A stretch of DNA of 64,000 nt from Triparma columacea (taxonomy: Eukaryota > Sar > Bolidophyceae > Parmales > Triparmaceae): the NCBI GenBank assembly GCA_030267965.1, contig BRYA01000276.1, positions 27,567-91,566 of the forward strand, given 5' to 3'. Below, in pieces: positions 18,427 to 64,000 of this stretch; position 1 is the stretch's first letter, and each line of letters begins with the position of its first letter. A program made the translations under genes and the position numbers. Below the pieces are notes generated by a model that had not been told where the DNA came from, did no database searches, and saw only the letters and a list, made by a program, of their open reading frames with translations.

Positions 18427-19224
18427 GAAGTGGAGTGAGTGAAGTTAAACAAAGTGTCTATGTATACGTTTCGGTTGAACGATGATAGTGCGTCTTTTTT
18501 TCTATACGTAGACTCCGTGTCAGAAAGAGTATCACCAGTTCCTTTAACAGTTCTCTGTTGTTGCGATATCATATTTTGTCATATTTATGAGCAAATGAGG
18601 AGATCACTTTGGACTTCAACAATTTCATGATTCCAACGTCTCATCAGATTCCTCAAAAGCCAACACCTAACCACTCTCTTATCAGCTAAATTACAGACGT
18701 ATTTACTTACTTACAGCACTTAAACTCCGACGATTAGCTCTCGAAGAAATCAATTTAATTGCAAATTTGCACAAAATTTTATTTCACTCAAATCATTTCT
18801 TATGTGTCTGACTTACTTAATAAACAACTATCTTTTTCATTTGATTAGCATATGATATCTATATATGAAATCATAAATTAAAAAAAAAAAATTGGATATT
18901 GTACTTCATTTTGTATCATAACTTTACACAAAATATTTTAATATATTTTAATTACTATGTGACAGTTTCAATTGATACTAAGAGTTTCTCAAAATGTCGC
19001 TAAGATTTATCAAATAGCCTTTTTAGAAGACAAATATTTCTTATGAAATTATGTAGTGAATAATATTGAATATAAATATACCAAAAGATATAAAAGGTCT
19101 ATAATCATTCACAATTTCCACTTCAAAAAATTCTAGCAAACAAAGATCTTTTCTACATCTTCTTTCCTCCTTCACAGTCGGATCTTTACACTATCTTCTC
19201 TTTTTCCTCCTTCACTGAATTCAA
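18427..19224. other. AT-rich intergenic region
   Basis: About 800 bp, markedly richer in A and T than the flanking genes, especially 18700-19140. It contains homopolymer A near 18880 and no ORF worth calling. It would hold the promoter of the DNA methyltransferase gene. No tRNA or repeat structure was recognised. Confidence 0.6.
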
Positions 19225-22200
19225 ATGCCAGATTCAACGACATTCCAACCGATCCCTGGTTGCCCAGCAGGTTGGGAGGTATCTTTTAAGAGCCGAGGGC
19301 AGCAGAGGGGTGTCGACAGGATCCTCAGGGGGCCTAATGGGAAAATCTATAAAACCATAAAGAGTGCCAAGGGTGACTTCCCCGACGCCTTTACATCCTT
19401 CGGTGAGCGAACTCGTCTGTAGTAGAGGTTCCACTGCCTGATCTCTCCTCTCTCTCATCACCCCCCTCCCATCCCACCTCTTCCACAGACAACCAAGCCC
19501 TTAACGTCATGCAGGACATGTGTGCAAAGAAGCTTGTTTCTTCAGAGTCCCGATTCATGAGCACAGATGCGCAGTATGAAAAGCAGCTGATGAAGCAGCG
19601 AGCAAACGCACGTGCAAGGGGGGTCGCCCCCACGACGCACACATCCGTAGTCGCTCCGATTCGCTGCCTCAAGAAGGACATCCCAGGGGCTCCCCTTTCT
19701 TTTCGCGATCCATCTATCACTCTGAAGTACAAACCTCGTCTTATAGTTGCACCGAAGGTGAGAGTGGGCGAAGATGAAGCAGCACTGGACGAACTTCGTG
19801 CGCACTCCATAACCAAGCTAACCTTCTATTTATCTTCCTCTGTCGTTGCTTCGCTATTCCCCTAAGTGGCTGGTCAAGATAGTGAGCTATACACACACCA
19901 TCGAGAAGCTTTTTGACAAGCATCCCTCGTACGACAACAATTATATCCTCAATGATGCACTTACCGCAGATGAACTCCGCCACTTTGGAATCGACGACCC
20001 TGGACTCGCCTCTGAGCGCAATCTCTTCCTAACCTCGAACAAGTATCTTGATTTTGGTGAGATAACAGATGACACTACTACAATGCAATACAACCTTCTG
20101 ACCTTGCACGTCACGCACTTCTCTCACCCATCCATAATTTCAATCCCTATCGCGCTTTACCCCGCTCATTGCGTAGGCTCCCTCATATTCTCGGCAACCG
20201 AGAACATAAGGACTCTAACAGAAAGCTGGAAGACAGGCTTCACGCACATGGACAAGAAGAGTTACAGCGCTTTCGCAAACGCATTGAAGGAGTCCGAGAT
20301 TCGGTGCGACCCGTCGCTGTTCGTCGAAGGCATGAGCCTACTACTACAGTCCTTGAAGCCTGCCAACCTCCTGCCTACCGTCGGGACCAGCTCCGCAAGA
20401 CTTTCCCTCATTTCGTCGTTGAAGACGCAGTGCATAGCGCAGGTTGCGCCTTCGTACAATAACAGCAAGGTGAGATGCAACGAGACGAGGAGGGGCGAAT
20501 CGATGGGAAAAACTTTTTGCTCATCGCTTCACTCATCTCATCTCATCTCCTCTCATTGCTTCGTACGTCGCACAGGCATACTTCTGTTGTTGTTGTCACA
20601 CATACATGAAACCATCAGAAGTTAAAAGGTTGCGGGTCAAGGAAGAGGAGGAGAAGGTGACGAAGGGGAAGTTCTCCAGGCGATCAACTTCGAAGAGAGC
20701 GGGTGGAGGGAGCGAAAGCAAAAAGACGGAGGAAAACGATAAGGTGGAGACTTGGAGCGCGACGAAAGGGGCTCGAGAGGGTAAAAGAACTTGCCCCCCT
20801 CTTTCTGACTTCGAGGATCTTATGGAATCGGACGTCGAGTCAAACATCGACTCAGACGACGACTCGGACGATGACGTGGACAGAGAGGATCTAGAAATTG
20901 TCAAGAGTGTCTTGGACCGAGCGATCAGTGGCGTGATACGCCGCGATAAAATGAACGACTACCAGCAGCTCAGGGAGGTGAGAATAGACACAGAACGAAA
21001 TTATACAGTGACAACGACATCAGAACACTAACACAAGCCGCTCGTCGCAGTCCAAGATATCTCGCAATAACGCATTTCTCAAAAATCTCGGGCTCAAACC
21101 TTTCTCAAGCTTGCAAGAGGAGAAGAAGGAGGCGAGAAAAAGGAAGAAGAAAGCGGCGAAGTTGACAATGGACATCTCCAAGAAGGCGAAGACCGCAGGG
21201 TCATCTAACCCTGTCGTCCATATTGATGCCTCCGAACAAGTCGACGTCAACAATGTCCAGGCCGCCACTGCAATGGAAATCGATGAAGCCGTTGCCACAA
21301 CGACGACGACCACAACGACGTCAACCACGATGACGCCTGCAACAACGACCACAACAACGTCATCGCAGAACTGCTCCGACTCCCCTGACGCCCTCCCCGA
21401 CGCCTCCCCAGACGCCCCCCCAGACGCCCCCCCAGACGCCCCCCCAAAGAAGCCGGCGTCGGCATTTGCAATTTTCATGTCGGAGAAGAGAGTTGAGGTT
21501 GTCACCAAGTTTCCCAGCGCTACGTTCGGAGAGATAGGAAAGCGAATTGGAGCGATGTGGCGTGCCCTCTCCAAAGAAGACCGACGACCATACTCTGAGC
21601 AAGCATCCATCCGTAAGGCTGCATACAAACAGAGTTTGAAATCCTACCGTGAAGCTCACCCTCCTCAGAAGCAACAGCCATCACATGTGACTTCCCCTCC
21701 TCCAGCCGTATTGACAGAAAAGCAGGACGTTAAGGACCCCGACGATCTTGATCTCCCTTCCTTTGTCCCGCACCCGGTGTTTCGAACGTATTTTTGCGTC
21801 CCTTGCGCAAAGCAGTATGCCGACAAAATGAGGACATTTACGTACGCAGCCGTTCGCAAACCGTCCAGGCGACCGATTGTTTCAACTCCCCAGCCAACGT
21901 CTTTAAGCAACTTCCGAATCGAGGAGGAAGCCGCGCGTGACCCCAACGATTACGTGAGTGTAATTTGTATTATGCTCGCCTAAATAAACCTGGCACTAAC
22001 ACCATTATTGCACTCTATTTCAACTATCCAGATGTGTGAACTCTGCGCTCGTCACAGTGCGCCGAAGAGCACACCAGTTTCGAAGTTGCCACGAGACGCT
22101 GCTAAGAACGTGGTTTGCACGAGAAAGGGATGCGATTGTAGCTTTTGCGAAAAGTGCATCCTACTGCTGTGCGGTGGAGCCGAGCTCAACTTGGCGAGAA

Positions 22201-24482
22201 ATGTTCCAGGTTGGATCTGTTTTCTTTGTCGGAATGCAAATTTTGTCCGACCCGACCACGAAATGCTGCTCTACCAATTCCTCCAGCCAAATAATCCTAA
22301 CTTAACTGGGGCCTTGGACCTCAACGAGGTTCAAGCAATGATTGGAAATCACCAGATGGACGTTACCGGGTACAAGGAATCAGAATTCACTCTCGAGTCT
22401 TTCGCACAACAACAGTGGCTGATCGACTCAGCATCGAAGAAGAACGAGAAGATGCAGCTAACGAAGCGTGATTCTGCATGGTTTCATCAGGGGGGACTTC
22501 GAGTGCTGAGTCTCTTTGGAGGTATCGAGGCTTCCCTAGTTGCGCTCAAACAACTGAGTTTAAAGATTGACCTTTACGTCAGCGTGGAAAAGGACGAGGA
22601 TGCAAGAAAAGTTACAGCTGCGAACCACGTTGATCTCCTCGCAAAAGCCAAGCTGATCTTTGTCAACGATATCCTCGACGTTGACGCTTCTCTATTACTT
22701 GGTCTTCAGAAGGCTGGAAGCGGTGGCGGCGGTGGGTTTCACCTCGTTATTGGGGGGAGTCCTTGTCAGGACTTTAGTTATCAGGGCAATCTCAACGGTG
22801 GAGAACGACCCGGCTTAGACGGCGATAATGGGAAACTGGTTTATGAGTTTTTCCGCGTCCTTGGTCTTGTTGAGCGACTGAACTCAAAGGTTGGCTTCCC
22901 CAAGCCCGCCTTCGTCTACGAGAACGTCGCCGGCATGGACTCGTCTATAAAGAAGACCATTTCTTCATGGCTAAGAGTTGAACCAACACGTTTGAATGCC
23001 GACTTGTTCTCTCCAGCTTCTCGGCCAAGAGACTTCTACACAAACATCCCGGTTGAGCTGCTTCCCGGCGACACTGAGAATAATGACCTCAAAATGCCCA
23101 CGCTTCAACAGATCCTAACCTCACCAGCCCAAGCCCTCACGCCCAAAGCAAAATGTATTATCACGTCAAACGGAGCTGAGGTGTTTGCGACAGGGAGGAC
23201 TAATGTGTTCTACCAATTCGACAAGAAGTGGATAGACCATTTCAACCGCGTCTATCGAAACCGCTACGACCACAGCCTCGGCTTCAGAAACCTGTCGATC
23301 GCGGAAGTCGAGAGATTGCAAGGGTTACCCCCGGGGTACATGTCCGTCGTAGACACTGCGCGTTCGAAGGACTTTAATCGGTGCTGGGGCCTTCTCGGGA
23401 ACATGTTTTCTGTGCCGGTAGTTGTATACTTACTCTCTCCGTTCCTACAGAACGTACCAGCGACAGTCTACCACACGCCTGTGAGGTATCCCTTCGAGGT
23501 GGAGTTATCTCCTAGAATCCCTTTCCCTGAGGACAGTCTTTTGCAGGCTGATCCCACGACCGTGGTCGCAAAACCAACGACTGCTGCGGCTGCTAAAACG
23601 ACCATTACCACGCAACCCAACAATCAGATTACAGAAAAAATTGTAGTCAGCAAGAAAGTTGTAGAGAACTCCAATGATAGGGACTACAACAATGACGAGG
23701 AGGAAAGTGACGAGGAGATGGAGATTCTGCCCGGTCCGACGAATTGGGTTCCTGGACTGGACTCGCTTCCGACGCGTTTTAAATTCATCTGCTGCGATAA
23801 GTGTAACACCTGGAGGCGAATCCCCGCTCACATCAAGTTTGATGAGGGGGAGACCTTTTTTTGCAAGGACAACATCTGGAGCAACATGACGTTTGACAAG
23901 ACATGTCAGTGGAGAAATGACGAGGCAGGCAAGAGCAGCGAAATTGTTGCCGAACGTGCGAGAAGATCACGGATGCCAACCTCCAACGATGAGGATGACG
24001 ATGACGGCGACGATGAAGAGGGCGTTATCCCCGAGCTTACTGAGGTTCGCCAGGAAGTAGTTGACGAGCTTCAAGCTGAGCTCAGAGCAGCTCGATCGGA
24101 GATTGAGAGGCACAAGGGAGAAGAACGGGCTCGGCTCCTTCGCCAGCAAGACCTGATCGCCATGCTGGCGGCCACTGCTTCCGTCCCCGCCTCATTCCGA
24201 GCTGCTGATGTAAGAAGTGACAATCTCGCAGTGATGCAAAAAAAAGCGCAAGATGAATTGATTGAGCGAACTCAGAAGGAGCACGAGAAATCAGCACATA
24301 ACCAAGGTAATCTAGTGACTCCGCCTTCAAAGAAGAAAGGCGCGGGAGGGAGGAAGGTGGCTAAGGCTGCGGGGGGGGGAGGAGGGCGAAAGAGGACGAG
24401 CGACGGAGGAGGGAGGAAGGTGGCTAAGGCTGCGGGGGGGGGAGAGGGGCGAAAGAGGACGAGCGACGGAAAAGGTAAATGA
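19225..24482 (+). CDS. Mosaic DNMT3-type DNA (cytosine-5) methyltransferase
   Basis: Seven exons (19225-19402, 19489-19757, 19867-20056, 20177-20469, 20576-20977, 21051-21953, 22032-24482) join in phase to a protein of about 1561 residues. The order is: MBD-like N-terminus (PAGWEVSFKSRG, VDRILRGPNGKIYKT; residues 14-50); an unrecognised region; an acidic stretch near 370-400; an HMG box (PKKPASAFAIFMSEKR to KQSLKSY; about 575-645); an ADD-type zinc finger (MCELCARH, then CSFCEKCILLLCGGAEL, then GWICFLC; about 690-815); a catalytic domain from about 900 to 1215; a CW zinc finger (CCDKCNTWRRIPAHIKF, ending in TCQWRNDEA; about 1330-1377); a coiled coil; and two basic GGRKVAKAAGGG repeats. Catalytic motifs are canonical: VLSLFGGIEAS (SAM), VIGGSPCQDFS (nucleophile Cys about 988), FVYENVAGM, RPRDFY and LLGNMFSVPVV. 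Motif order and the ADD place it with DNMT3. It should methylate nuclear DNA. Confidence 0.9.
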
Positions 24483-56343: not shown

Positions 56344-59300
56344 ATTCTAAATCCCCGCGAGAGTTGAGCTCACAGCACATGGACACGAAAATTGATTCCC
56401 GAGGAGGGGGTGAAGAGCGTGTGAGGGAGGATCATATACTCCAGGTTGACGCCCCAATGCCCGATAACTGCCATTCAGTACCCAATCTAGGCCACGAGAG
56501 GCAAGTTACTCCGTCTTCAGCAATTGAAAGACTTCATGGGGACGCTGGACAAGGTGAGAGAGCCGTGTCAGGGGGTACCCAACCCAAGGGGTGGAAACTC
56601 TTGATATTCTACAGGGAAAAAGGACGATATGTCGGATCACACATAGAAATCTTTCTCATTTTGACTAACAAATGCCATAATCGCCATTACCGCAGACTCT
56701 GAAAATGGTCACGAGGACGCTGGACGAGGTGAGTTGCGCCGAAAAAGGAAAAATACATTTTAATTCTCTTGCAGAGAGTGGGAGACTCGCGGGAGGGCGC
56801 GTTGAAACTTTGTAATATTTTCTCACTTTTGCAATTCGTTGTGTTGTCCCTTCACAGTCTCTAAATCTAAAAACTCTCATGAAGACGCTGGACAAGACCG
56901 AGGTAAGTTCGATTCAGGGAGTCGAAGGGGGGGAGACCCTTGATATTCTACATCGAGGAGCACGCGTTGATATCTCTTCATGTTGACTAACAACACCATA
57001 ATCGCCATTGCCGCAGACTCTGAAAACGGCCACGAGGACGCCGGACAAGGTGAGTTGTGCGTTGAGAGCAGGAAAAGAAAAACACACTTTAATACTCTAG
57101 GGGAGAGCGGAAGAGTCGCGGGAGGGCGCGTTGAAACTTTGTAGTTTTTCTCACCGCCTGCGTGCGGAACGTGCGGAGCCGTTCCCGGAGGGCCTGGCCC
57201 TCGGCGTCGAGCTCGACGGGCAGCGGCCGCCCGGCGCACGCGCGCGCGCGCCGGTCTGCGGCGACCGCATGGGATCAGTCTCTGGCGACCGCGTGGGTTC
57301 CGTCTGCGGCGACCACATGGGGCGTTTCTGCGGCGACCGCATGGGTTCCGTCTCTGGCGACCGCATGGGGCGCTTCTGCGGCGACCGCATGGGCTCTGTC
57401 TCCGGCAACCGCGTGGGGCGCTTGATATGCTACACAGAAACGAGGAGCATGCGTTGATATCTCTTCATGTTGACTAACATAACAAACACCATAATCGCCA
57501 TTACCGCAGACTCCAAAAACCGCCACAAGGATGCTAGACGAGGTGAGTTTGCGTAGTCGTGTAGAGGAAAAGTAGAGTATTTTGATTGTTCAAGAGAGGG
57601 CTGGGAAGCCGTTCTAAGAGAGTTTCAGATTGCCCTGTTTCAACTTTTTAACACCAAAAATTCCCCCAAAACCACCCCCAGAAATTTCTGGCCATTCTCA
57701 ACTTCAACCTGGATTTGAAAAATTTAACACCGACATTTCCGACGACCCCTTAAACGGCGGAGTAGCGGGCGAGAACAATCTAAGCGCTATACCGCCTGCT
57801 GTCGGGTGCGAGACTCAAGGCCGCACGCCAGTCGGCCTTGCGACTGTCAGCCACGCCACTGCCGCTCAGTCCATGACATTAGATCCTGACAACACCGTCA
57901 GGAACAAAGACCCCCCCGAGTCCCTCTCTAGCCCCAATCACGCCTCTTCCACTACGCAAGGACAAGTTGATATCAATTACGCAGCTCTTGGACCCGAGCA
58001 AGGCAAACTTGTGAAGCTTCTTGAGGAGAGAGGAGCCGTTGAAGGCCTCATCGACACTTCCACTGGCCACGATATTAAAGTTTCAGGGCTCGCTGGCGTT
58101 TTCCACGACGAGCGCGACAAGATCATTGACTATATCCTCACCGATTGTGAGCAGGGCAAGTTCCAAAGGAAGACCCTCCAGGAGTATGACGAAAAGGAAA
58201 AAGTCATTCACAGACTCGTCTACTGGAAGTATTACGACAGGAGAAGTAAGGTCGTCGAATTTCTGCTTGACGTCAAGGTCGTCTCTCCTGACAAATCGAC
58301 GAACATTATGGAATTGGCACCCCTTGATGAGGACGATCTTTCTGACGAGGCAACTGCAAAGCTCGTTGAGATTCTAGCTTTAACAAATACCAAGACTGTC
58401 AAGCGAGGTGTCATTAAGGGCGAGCTCAGCTTCACTGATTTCGAGTTTGGACAAACTGCAGTCACCATGGTGGGAACTCTTAAGGCAGAGGAGAGAGCAA
58501 CAGAGACGAAATCAGAAGTAGACGTTAGCGCAGTCAAAAGCTTTAAGAGTGTGAGATCCACGAGATCTAGTGTTGAAGGGAGGAACAGTGGCAGGATCAA
58601 GAAGGGAGATGTCAAGGCTGCGTATGCAGCAGTAAAGGGTATTATGGAGGAGGTCAGGAAGAAGTTCAGACATCCTGCAGTCATTGACGAGCGGAGGAAG
58701 GCGCGCTTTGTGGAAGAGGTCATGCCAAGGGCACCGCCTCTGACAAGAGAGGAGGAGGCAATGTTGGAGAGGGTTGGGAGCCTAGAGAAGGAACTTCACA
58801 CAAATGGGAAGAGAATCAAGGGGACACTGAAGGAGGGGATTGACAAGTTCCAGTGGAGAGACGGGGACAAGGTGTGGGCAGCCTTTGGGGTCACTGTGGA
58901 CAAGTCAGCAAAGGGTGTATTGGCAGAGCAATTTCTGCTTGACACATTTGCGCGATCCGAGAAGCACTTAAAAAACAATGGGAACTTACCAAGGGCTATC
59001 AGGAATGATTTTGAGGGAACAAGAAGCATGCACTATCATTTTGGCGTGAAGGTCCCTGCCGCCACCAATCGACTATTTGAGAATTGGTTTGTGTGGAAGG
59101 AAGTTAAACTTGAGAATGGCAGGACATCATACATTTTGGCTTTTGTGCCACTGACAGAGTACCCAGGAGGAGGCTTCAACGACCTCAGTAAGGAAGGATT
59201 TGTGCTAGCAGAGACTACAGGTGTCTACTTTTTCAACGAGATTGCCCCAAATGTCTGTAGGGTGACGCGTATTCAAACAGTTGATCTGCATTTCCAAGGC

Positions 59301-62300
59301 CTTCAAAAGACACTGATGGACAAAGCCATTGACTACCTTGCAAAGAGTCAGCTTGTTGAGGCCAACAGGTTGCAGAAGAAGTTCAGGAGGAACGAGAAGG
59401 AAGTTGATGCTGAGGTCAGAGGGGCCTTGATGGAGAGGATGAGGGAGGGGGTTGAGTTGGAGGAGGACCAGAAGAAGGTGTTTGGGGAGTTGGAGGCACT
59501 CTTTGGTGGGGAGAGGGAAGGAGGGTGGGGGCCTCTTGAGTCACCTTATGGGGGAGTGAAGATGGAGATCAAGTACAAGCAGCAGGAGAAAGGGAAAAAG
59601 ACACTTGGTTTTGGAAGAGCCGAGTGTTTAGCTGACTGTTCAGCAGAGGAAGCAGCTGCTTGGTTCTTTGAGTTCTGCAGCAGGGAGAGGATGTCAGTGC
59701 ATAGAGAGGAAGGGAATCCTGCAAGGCTGGAGATAAAGGAGAGTGGCGAAGGAGTGGTGAATGAAAAGCTGTTTGCAACAGTCAAGAAACTTCCTTTCCC
59801 TCTTCACAAAAGAGAGTTTGTGATGAGATGTGTATGGCAAAAAGTACAGCATGACAACACAATGTCTGTAGCCTTTGTCCCAGCTAAAGAGCAGGTAGAC
59901 TATGGGGAAAATCTAGGAAAGCTTGTGCTGGCAACAACAAGTGGCATTCTCACTGCCAAGAATATTGAGGACCATAATGGTGTTCTCCAGTGTAAACTTA
60001 CATTGACCCAGTATATGGACACAGGAGGGCACATTCCAGTAAAAGTTGTCAACAAATCAGTCCCATACGCGCTAAGTGCGATAGCAGAGCTCAGGGACTC
60101 TTTCAAGCAAGATGAAAAGGTTGATAAAGCTGCACTGGCCTCTCTTGCAAACACCATGACAAATGCGCCCCAAATGCACTCTGCAGAGGAGGACATTGCA
60201 GTCAAGGAGGGGATAGATATCTACGAGAGCTGCACAAAAAGTAGATTTGATGTCCTCAAAAGTCCAGATAATTGTGTTGAGATGAAAGCCATCCACATTG
60301 AAGGAGAAAGCCTTGTCACTGGTCTTGCAACAACTGTGGTTGATGCAAGTATAGAGGAATGCACCGCATATGAGTTCTACCTTGATAGTAGGAAGCGCAG
60401 AAATACTGCCAAGGAAAGAGGTATTGTTGATTTAATGGTTGAAAAGGCCAACAATCACACTCGATACTACTTCACCACCAGAAATCTCGGTGTTCCAGGT
60501 TTTGCTAAACGCCAATGGCGGAGCAAAATAATATGGAAGAGCGTAAACAATGGGAAGATAGTCATGGTAGTGGCAGATACTCTTGATCTTTTAGATAAAA
60601 GTCCAATTTTACCTGGTACTGTGCTTGCCTCTGGTAACACTATTTGGATTTTTAAGGCCCTTCCTTCTGTTGGAGGAACACCACAGACAGCTGTCACCCT
60701 AACTGCAAAAGTAGATATAGGTGGTGCAGTGCCAACATTCATTATGAATAGGTTGACAACCGGATTCTTATCCACAATTTCTGACCTGAGAAAGAGATTC
60801 GACAAGAGTCAAGAAATCGACAAATCGAACAGACTGCAGGTCGCAGAATATTTGCAAAGACTCAAAGTTACAAGCATAAAAGGATTAGACGATGCTTTGG
60901 AGGATGTAGAGGGTGCAAGTAAGACTGGCAGTCTTTCCTTTGCTAATACTGCGATTAAAGCAGTGGGGGGAGGAAAGGGATGGGGTAAGACCACTGTTAC
61001 CATGAGATCAACCCTAGAAGAGGTGGTTGCTTATTTTTGGAACATTGATAGCCGGGCTTTGTCAAACAAGAGCAAAGGCATGGAGAGAAAAGTCGAGAAA
61101 AAGACTGATAACTTTGATATGACTGTGAGGACAAGGGAGAAGCTTGAGAGTGAGCACCACTTTGCCCATCACGACAGGGAGTACTTGTCCAATGTGAAGT
61201 TATTAAAACCAGAGGAGGATACATTTATCTTGACTGTTCAACCTGTTGCAGAGAAGGGGGGCGAAAGGTCAATTCTGCAAAAACTTAACACCAACCACCA
61301 AAAAGGAGGGAGAGGTACACTATTATCCATAACACACAAGGCCACTGAAGCAACGACAATGAGATTTACCAAGGTTGGAGACAAGGAGACCAAGGTCGAG
61401 ATGGTTATAAACCTTGATGTTGGAACACATGTGGGTAAAAGTGCTACAACAAAAGTTGTTGAAAAACATTTAGCAAAGGTAGCAGACGCGACCTTCTACT
61501 TCCAAGATTTGCTTAGCAGTTTAGAGACAACAGAAGAGGATGGCAAGACTATAGCGGAGGAGCTGATGTTGAGAGTGAAGGAAAGGGAGAAGGCGCCAAA
61601 AAAGGATGTTGTGAAGGCATACATCAAAGCTAACAGGGCTCTGAAGGAGATGGTTGAGAGGTACGGCTTCATGGAGCCTTTACTGTGTTCTATAGTTGAA
61701 AACAAACTTCGGCCGGCTGCCAAGGTTGAAGGAAAAGCGGATTGTTTGGAAGAGAAGGATGGGAGGGACATTGGCAGCAGTCTGGCATTGACATTAGCCT
61801 CGACATTAACAGCAGGGCATGGTGTGGACGAGTGGGCTCACCAGTTCCCAGCAGTTCAGGAGCTTGAATTGGAGTATAGTTGGCTCAGGCCCATGCTGGA
61901 GACAATCAGTTACAAGTTGGTGGGGGAAGTTGGGTGGGGTTTGAAGGCAAGGGTGTTTGTAGGAGCAGCAACAAGTATGCTTGACTTACTGACAGATGTG
62001 TATGTGACCTACAAGCTTTGGAATGATAAGAAGTATGGGTACTTTATGGCTTCTCTGGCAAGTTTAATGACGTCAATTGGGATTCAGATGTTTTGCGTTT
62101 TTGTGCAGAACAAGAAGTTGGGACTGAAGAGGGTGGTGTTGGAGTGGTTTCCAATTTTAATTGGATTTAAGCCTGCTGTAGATGCCTACAGGGTGGCAAC
62201 TGGAGCAAAGCAAGAGGTTGGTACTGCAATGGACCCAATGTTTGAGATGGCATTCATGAAAGGGATAGAGATGTTTGCTGAGGCCATCCCTGGTGTGATT

Positions 62301-64000
62301 ATCCAACTTATGGCTATAGTAACAAGTGAAAAAGATGTTGGAACTTCAGCATGGCTTTCAGTTGCAGTGTCAGCAATTACAATAGGCTTTGCCTCTGCAA
62401 CAATTAGTTATGACTTTGACACAGACCCTGCTAACAGAGAAAGAGCACCAGACTTTTATGGGTATATACCTGCAAAAGCAAGCAAGAGAACAGTAGTGTT
62501 TGTTTCCACGATGCTATTGACAGCAGGGATGCTTCTAATAAGATGTACAACAATAGTACTTCTTGGGTTGATGGGAGGTAGTTGGGCCATTCTCTACATT
62601 GGCGCTGACCTTGGCCTATATTTGTTGGTTAAGATATTGAGGGGAGACTTTTGGTACTGGATACCATTTGGGGGTAACATTGAGATCGTGAGTAGTATTT
62701 TAATGAGAGTGGTGGTAAAGATCATTGTAGACTTCACTTCAATGGTACAATTACGACATCCCAATGAAGTTGGGGGTGCCTATTGGTTGTTTGGTCTTTT
62801 GTTGACAATGGGAAGCCTACCAGTGTCAATATATATATATCTATTTTCTCCTTATGTAGATGAGAGAGCAATTGATATTGCATCATTTATAGTGAAGTAT
62901 ATCATACCAATAACTACCATATGCCTTGGTGTTTTCTTTTTTAACATTGATAGCAAGTACTTGCACACCTTCTGGAGTACACAGAAATCAACGGAATATG
63001 CGATGGCATACTTTCAAGAAGGAGAAAGAGATGCTATTAAGATTGTAGTCTTTATGTTCTCAAGGCATAAATGGGTCTCAATTGAAGGAGAAATTAAGAA
63101 ATGGGTCGAGTTGAACTGGGCTAAATGGGAAGAGGAGCAGCCAGAGTGGTTTACTGATGTGATGAAGGCTAAAGTACCTGTAGATTTTATTCCAGCAGAT
63201 GGAGATGCACGAAGGAGAGAGAGTGTGAGAAGAGCAAGTGTTGATGCTCAAGTTGAGGGTGGTCTAGCAGGTTCTTTGAGAGCAAGTATTATGAGAGCAA
63301 GTGTTGGCTTGGACAATGGAGGCGCACTGATTGCGTCACATGCTGTGAATGATACTACACAAGACTATGCAGGTTTATATCCTAACAAAATAGGAAAGTT
63401 GTTGGGTGAGCAACTGTTGGTTGCATTGAGTTTCAGGAAGAAAGGAATGACAAAGGAGGAAGCTGTCAGGTTATTTATAGGGTCAAACTACATTCTGAGA
63501 CAGGCTGCAGAGGAGTACACGTTTATCATACCAATGCTTGGCTCAGTTATCAAGAACAAGCTGTGCAAGTTGAGGAAGATAGAGGGTAAGGCTGTGGAGC
63601 TGGGAGAGAAGGAAGGAAGGGAGATTGGAGAGTCTCTAGCGAGGAGCTTGGCTATTAATACTCAGCCAGTTGCTGCAGTTGATGCCTTCATATTAAATTT
63701 CCCTGCTTTACAGGAGCTTGATGAGGAGTATGAGTGGTTCAGACCTCTACTTGAGACAATTAGCTACAGGCTTTTGGAGGAAGTTCCTTGGGGGTTGAAG
63801 GCGAGAGTGACTGTTGGGGCTATCACCAGTATGACTGATTTGCTAACTGATGTGTATGTGACGTACATGTTTTGGAGTGATGAGAAGTATGGGTACTTTA
63901 AGGCTTCTTTGGCAAGTTTGGTAGTGTCAATGGGGATTCAAATGCTTTTGGTTTGGGGTCAAAATAGAAATTTGGGGGTGTTGAGGGTGATGAGGGAGTG
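56344..64000 (+). CDS. Giant START-repeat multi-pass membrane protein (partial at both ends)
   Basis: Exons 56344-56553, 56696-56728, 56858-56902, 57017-57049, 57510-57542 and 57682-64000 all join in phase 1. The last exon is open for 6.3 kb and runs off the window, so the visible protein exceeds 2200 residues. The N-terminus is disordered with repeated (N/R)-H-(E/K)-DA-(G/R) units from the mini-exons. From about 58.1 kb at least three, probably four, START-like lipid-binding modules follow. They end in typical C-terminal helix signatures: YMDTGGHIPVKVVNKSVPY near 60.0 kb, KVDIGGAVPTFIMNRLTTGF near 60.7 kb, and a related end near 61.5 kb. A membrane module follows (TSMLDLLTDVYVTYKLWNDK at about 61.98 kb, then about eight helices), repeated from 63.5 kb (TSMTDLLTDVYVTYMFWSDE). 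The likely role is lipid sensing or transfer linked to a membrane channel or scramblase-like unit; this is inference from domains. Confidence 0.75.
57255..57422. repeat. 24-bp GC-rich minisatellite, seven copies, inside an intron
   Basis: The unit TCTGCGGCGACCGCATGGG plus five variable bases repeats exactly seven times. It lies in the intron between mini-exons 57017-57049 and 57510-57542 and follows a GC-rich island (57155-57254) unlike the flanking sequence. Confidence 0.92.

Follow-up and report, generated by a model that had tools for sequence, protein, structure and literature searches.

The window analysed here, a stretch of 64,000 nucleotides from the genome of Triparma columacea (contig BRYA01000276.1), carries on its forward strand, at positions 19225–24482, a single seven-exon gene whose product resembles the cytosine-5 DNA methyltransferases (C5-MTases) of the DNMT3 kind. 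Sequence comparisons place an HMG box, a DNMT3-type ADD domain, the C5-MTase domain, a CW zinc finger and a conserved helical tail, in this order, in one protein. Judging from these features, the gene probably encodes a catalytically active C5-MTase of the DNMT3/DRM kind that, in this photosynthetic alga, methylates DNA de novo and is coupled to chromatin.

Gene structure and domain order

The seven exons splice in frame into 1561 residues with a single terminal stop, as an earlier reading of the bare sequence (the sequence-only reading) had proposed. All six introns are of the GT..AG type and 73–120 bp long, and the frame opens at 19225 with the first in-frame ATG that follows a stop just upstream. 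A codon-usage score, trained on 15 long open reading frames of the same genome (13,939 codons; frames of the window overlapping 19000–22031 were excluded), is positive for the coding frame in all seven exons, whereas all 14 remaining forward frames score negative. The introns stay at or below zero in each of their three forward frames, and one minus-strand frame each in exons 3 and 4 lies slightly above zero, yet below the coding frame. Exons 1–5 (19225–19402, 19489–19757, 19867–20056, 20177–20469 and 20576–20977) encode 444 N-terminal residues that contain no recognised domain. They are followed by intron 5 (20978–21050) and exon 6 (21051–21953), which harbours the HMG box and the GATA-like half of the ADD domain. 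Intron 6 (21954–22031) splits the ADD domain, and the junction between exons 6 and 7 lies where a transcriptome protein, P0002, continues unbroken. Exon 7 (22032–24482) is one open frame with the PHD half of the ADD domain, the methyltransferase, the CW finger and the C-terminal tail, and has a 99% identical environmental copy, P0001, which stems from the same species or nearly so and is therefore not independent.

The HMG box (21444–21650, residues 576–644) had been named by the sequence-only reading and is matched by Pfam PF00505 with 62.5 bits (E 5.1e-17, cut-off 25.4). The same holds for the DNMT3-type motifs of the C5-MTase domain (22488–23507, residues 898–1237): Pfam DNA_methylase covers residues 902–1052 of the spliced protein with 44.6 bits, a search of the PDB with the catalytic domain returns DNMT3A on top (E 3.1e-23) followed by DNMT3B and DRM, and motifs I, IV (PCQ), VI (ENV), VIII (RPR) and X (GN) are intact in the window protein and in all five relatives compared. 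Pfam found no PWWP domain in the spliced protein, with matches up to E 10 requested and the HMMER filters removing most above 0.1; the absence noted earlier thus stands, and the protein is not a full animal-type DNMT3.

Downstream of the catalytic domain, and preceded by a conserved W-x-PGLDSL-like motif, lies the CW finger (23787–23882, core residues 1331–1362), again where it had been expected. It scores 24.0 bits on the spliced protein (cut-off 27.5) and 31.2 bits in a six-frame search of the whole genome, which has 17 matches at E up to 1, 12 of them, this locus included, above the cut-off. Among solved structures, the CW fingers of ASHH2 come closest (PDB, E 2.6e-4). The Cys ligands and the second cage Trp are kept, while the first cage aromatic is Phe rather than Trp, these being the positions that we take to form the aromatic cage. 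A helical, coiled-coil-like stretch follows at approximately 24037–24192 (the coiled coil was judged by eye), which aligns in P0002, P0003 and P0004, and the protein ends in a basic tail rich in glycine, in which a GRKVAKAAGGG..GRKRTSDG unit recurs, up to the stop codon (24320–24482).

The ADD domain and the relatives of the enzyme

The ADD domain (21744–22289, residues ~676–831) consists of an HPxF...CxxC half followed by a PHD half, and its identity appears established through relatives rather than through the Pfam score of the window protein. A profile was built from three aligned regions, those of the window protein, P0002 and P0003. Compared by hhalign with 18 animal DNMT3 regions, it gives probabilities of 97.6–98.2% over 103–110 columns at 25–26% identity. 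In a decoy test on 128 proteins (127 fetched plus window exon 7) with five shuffles of each, 26 animal-type DNMT3 rows exceed the top decoy (best 27.5 bits versus 4.8), and the profile matches them just upstream of the catalytic domain. In the PDB, the profile has 12 matches at E up to 10, every one of them a chain with an ADD domain: DNMT3L (E 0.0037), ATRX (0.026–0.043) and DNMT3A and DNMT3B (0.42–3.7), the DNMT3L match taking in both halves in order. P0003 on its own scores 25.4 bits with the Pfam ADD PHD finger PF21255 (cut-off 27). In the PHD half, the Cys ligands and the W-x-C-x-x-C end are present. Further upstream, in exon 5, residues 314–318 form a CCCCH cluster (YFCCCCHTYMK) that by eye is like YFCVPCAKQY of the ADD GATA half, and could possibly be a degenerate repeat of it.

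Homology searches, one of which yielded the best 120 of 770 matches, define a family counted at 11 proteins: P0001–P0007 and the fragments P0013, P0014, P0017 and P0036. Among those best 120, several animal DNMT3s align across 88–92% of an ADD-plus-MTase query. The most informative relative is P0002, a protein of 915 residues from an MMETSP transcriptome that is 67–75% identical to the window protein and has most of the HMG box (profile positions 14–68 of 69), the ADD, the MTase and the CW finger in one frame; by this comparison, the HMG-ADD-MTase-CW set is kept in a protein from another source. P0005 and P0007 combine MTase and CW, and a CW finger is likewise found in P0006. The latter, an environmental protein with 19 member sequences on seven contigs, has the MTase first, then an HMG box (59.5 bits) and then the CW finger (38.7 bits).

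P0003 and P0004 give no CW match yet retain the W-x-PGLDSL motif upstream of the CW position, which suggests that CW was lost, or that an exon was missed by the gene calls. The C-terminus of P0004 carries an MBD that scores just short of the threshold, at 20.8 bits (cut-off 21). P0005–P0007 start at, near or inside the MTase and are uninformative on the ADD domain; P0004 has 83 residues upstream of its MTase that contain no ADD match, and upstream exons could be missing. Given these differing orders, the module set looks fluid among relatives.

The methylation toolkit and CpG footprints of the host

The genome searched comprises 37.85 Mb on 789 contigs. With 57 matches to light-harvesting proteins and with silicon transporters on one contig (E 1.6e-112), the host is, by its gene content, a photosynthetic alga with silicon transporters. 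A V4 primer pattern matched at no place in the genome. A search for the C5-MTase family returned five matches at four loci. Apart from the window gene, these are a DNMT5-like gene that combines MTase and SNF2 domains (L006), a gene classed by its DNMT2-like motifs (L007), and a further C5-MTase with an SPPCQDFS motif (L008; G000:C467, 3051–4661, forward strand), for which Pfam gives the MTase only and the PDB holds no solved relative at E 0.01.

A footprint of methylation may be seen near the end of the window. At 59001–64000, the observed/expected (o/e) ratio of CpG falls to 0.18–0.40, TpG and CpA are raised, and at each of the three codon positions CpG is rare relative to these two dinucleotides, which supports past CpG methylation of this region. 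The loss is sharp-edged, extends from ~59 kb to the end of the window and lies inside an unbroken frame of 2127 residues (57618–63998, forward strand) with an XK-related match (PF09815, 33.1 bits) and a weak START match. For comparison, 126 other kilobase bins of the genome were scored, some of them from loci that overlap and none from the loci of the window itself; of the 126, three have a CpG o/e below 0.45, all in L018 (G000:C193), which over its whole 3.1 kb ranges from 0.28 to 0.44 and lies beside a cysteine-rich membrane-protein-like frame. Such footprints support past CpG methylation of some genes in this alga; no link to the window enzyme is drawn from them.

Role, origin and comparison with known systems

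The reading of this gene as an active, chromatin-coupled de novo enzyme is supported by the in-frame gene, the intact motifs, DNMT3A and DNMT3B as top PDB matches, the ADD and CW domains, P0002, the DNMT5-like gene and the CpG-loss footprints. In the mechanism proposed, selected loci would acquire new CpG methylation through this enzyme, and the DNMT5-like enzyme encoded in the same genome would afterwards maintain it. The ADD domain would dock on the catalytic domain or on the histone H3 tail and, like its counterpart in animal DNMT3, gate activity; the HMG box would lend the enzyme affinity for DNA that is bent or lies in linkers; the CW finger would tether the enzyme to a methylated lysine, by homology of the type of histone H3 lysine 4 (H3K4); and the C-terminal tail would oligomerise the enzyme.

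A number of observations weigh against this reading, some of them on the ADD domain. Pfam scores it at 13.8 bits (E 0.064) in the window protein, which is not significant alone. The animal DNMT3 matches in the decoy test are limited to the PHD half, and the GATA half is supported by hhalign and by weak scores (8.5 bits to DNMT3L, E 0.063 in P0003). None of the three algal sequences has the first CxxC pair of the GATA-like half (the window protein keeps only the second, C693 and C696), and insertions of ~31 residues between the halves and ~15 within the PHD half count against ADD identity. DNMT3A D529 and D531 are, we presume, the acidic residues that contact H3K4; one of the pair is kept in the window protein and P0002, and neither in P0003. 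With the first CxxC gone and the acid pocket partly kept, H3 binding by the ADD domain may be lost. The ADD finger of the sequence-only reading is thus borne out by the profile comparisons with animal DNMT3s and the PDB, and weakened by the Pfam score and the absent Cys pair; on the sequence evidence it is ADD-derived, with an altered zinc site. Outside the ADD domain, the model of exons 1–5 draws on splicing and the coding score, and the transcriptome protein P0002 does not extend into these exons. Transposons had been considered as targets, and seven copia-type (RVT_2) loci of the genome have a CpG o/e of 0.73–1.49 with no depletion (L124, one of the loci in this test, has a GC content of only 24%); transposons are therefore not supported as targets.

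Phylogeny adds a further point on the same side. A first tree used 49 MTase rows chosen from the 128 proteins, with plant DRM re-linearised by script. In it, all six rows of the family fall into a single clade (support 100/99), which includes the P0004- and P0006-type relatives and lies beside DRM (98/93), apart from animal DNMT3 and the single-domain rows; the family is not placed together with animal DNMT3, and three rows first labelled single group among animals. A second tree of 42 rows, without DRM and P0042, again recovers the family as one clade (100/100). Both trees are in effect unrooted and contain neither DNMT1, DNMT5 and DNMT2 nor named algal DNMT3. Moreover, at least 433 relatives occur on IMG/VR contigs, and the 80 listed share 26–35% identity, so that viral methyltransferases are about as similar. 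Membership in DNMT3 would hence be argued from best matches, motifs and the ADD domain, and the tree is compatible with a catalytic domain of orphan or viral origin.

Such an origin is the alternative that fares best, although we consider it unlikely: the catalytic domain would be virus-derived or an 'orphan' eukaryotic MTase rather than a DNMT3 orthologue, and ADD, HMG and CW would have been gained by fusions of its own. A long branch sets the family apart (0.72 and 0.96 changes per column in the two trees), viral MTases of comparable identity are plentiful, motifs IV and X read PCQ and GN where animal enzymes have PCN and GK/GR, and the modules are reshuffled among relatives. Set against this, the ADD domain immediately precedes the MTase, the arrangement also seen in animals, the ADD part is unmatched in all 80 viral loci listed, and in the first tree the family falls beside plant DRM, with the caveat that the DRM branch is long and un-permuted. 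The viral matches cover the catalytic part alone in all 80 cases, starting at query residue 148 or later. A viral origin of the whole ADD-MTase was rejected, as no viral contig with an ADD domain occurs among the 80 listed of at least 433.

It is improbable that exons 1–5 are a separate gene and that the methyltransferase starts in exon 6. Pfam finds no domain in residues 1–355, no relative covers exons 1–5 (no protein-database search used them as a query of their own), P0002 begins within the HMG box and P0003 shortly ahead of the ADD domain. However, the frame is continuous across five GT..AG introns with no stop, and exons 1–5 all score as coding in that frame. The start of P0002 lies inside the HMG fold, which suggests a cut transcript and makes this protein uninformative on exons 1–5.

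A shade less credible still is the triple reader of the sequence-only reading, in which an MBD would recognise methylated CpG, the ADD domain unmethylated H3K4 and the CW finger methylated H3K4. ADD and CW are both present, and the relative P0004 has its C-terminal MBD. However, at the N-terminus of the window protein Pfam finds no MBD in residues 1–149, 1–81 or 64–355, a PDB search with residues 1–75 gives two chance-level matches, neither of them an MBD, and none of the nine places found by a genome-wide MBD search at E up to 10 is at this locus. A local profile of eight MBDs (from the same genome and P0004) scores 1.6 bits on the window protein, a value reached by 27 of 2000 shuffles. By hhalign, residues 15–44 align to MBD with a few positions in sensible register (GW, PNGK) and a score that none of 200 shuffles reaches, at a probability of 14% versus 39–99% for the eight MBDs when left out in turn. 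We treat this stretch as a faint resemblance and not as a domain. The Pfam searches thus recovered the HMG box, DNA_methylase and, in the genome-wide search, CW, whereas the MBD had to be dropped, and with it goes the basis for sensing existing DNA methylation through an MBD. The incompletely kept acid pocket of the ADD domain and the change from W to F in the CW cage also speak against the triple reader, and the reading of both H3K4 states by one enzyme is unproven from sequence. HMG box and MBD do occur joined in the same genome outside a methyltransferase, in a frame of 606 residues (L014; G000:C503, 1180–2997, reverse strand) with 74.3 and 21.7 bits (MBD cut-off 21), respectively. Finally, a catalytically dead, DNMT3L-like regulator, to which DNMT3L as the top PDB match of the ADD profile would point, is very improbable in view of the PCQ, ENV and RPR motifs and motifs I and X, intact throughout the window protein and the five relatives.

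A broader scenario may be sketched, which we regard as possible though doubtful. The pairing of ADD with a DNMT3-type MTase would predate animals, going back to their common ancestor with ochrophyte-like algae, and would have been lost in most lineages; in this algal group the modules would then have become fluid, with HMG on either side of the MTase, CW retained in some members and lost in others and MBD added in one relative, and targeting would proceed via readers other than PWWP. With this family it can be tested whether the control of de novo methylation by ADD is an ancestral trait or a product of convergence, and its naturally reshuffled enzymes could be used to ask which reader sets the sites of DNA methylation.

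In the literature, Hoguin 2023 (PMC9998398) states that most stramenopiles except diatoms lack DNMT3 and that microalgal DNMT3s are all without chromatin-associated domains; likewise, a 2025 paper in MBE (PMC12344493) describes protist and algal DNMT3s as lacking companion domains. According to a 2024 paper (PMC11244446), PWWP and ADD are absent from the DNMT3 of animal relatives and were acquired in animals, a gain that is tied to gene-body methylation. The HMG-ADD-MTase-CW architecture is not met in the available parts of PMC3457860 or PMC10538959. The sequence-only reading knew of no described protein with its order; for HMG-ADD-MTase-CW, the papers listed from the open-licence literature (supplements excluded; at most the best 20 per search) likewise gave no description, an unlisted mention being possible, and no paper on DNA methylation in Parmales was found there. 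As judged from its sequences, the algal ADD-MTase family with HMG and CW contradicts the statements of 2023–2025, and 'no companion domains' would not hold as a general rule.

Compared with the known systems, the enzyme shares with animal DNMT3A and DNMT3B (PWWP-ADD-MTase) an ADD domain directly before the C5-MTase, and these are its top PDB matches; it differs in having no PWWP match, in its additional HMG box and CW finger, in an ADD domain without the first CxxC and with two insertions, and in PCQ and GN in place of PCN and GK/GR. Diatom and other algal DNMT3s are, in PMC9998398 and PMC12344493, likewise DNMT3-type enzymes of algae that also have DNMT5, and are described there without companion domains, unlike the window protein with its HMG, ADD and CW; this comparison is by description only. 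Within its own MTase clade, P0006 has the order MTase-HMG-CW, and P0004 an MTase with a C-terminal MBD and no CW match. Plant DRM2 belongs to the DRM group that stands with the family in one tree, and differs in that DRM is circularly permuted, has UBA domains in some cases and has no ADD, HMG or CW listed. ASHH2/SDG8 has in common with the algal enzyme a CW finger with the second cage Trp and the Cys ligands; there, the finger is joined to a histone methyltransferase, whereas here it is joined to a DNA methyltransferase.

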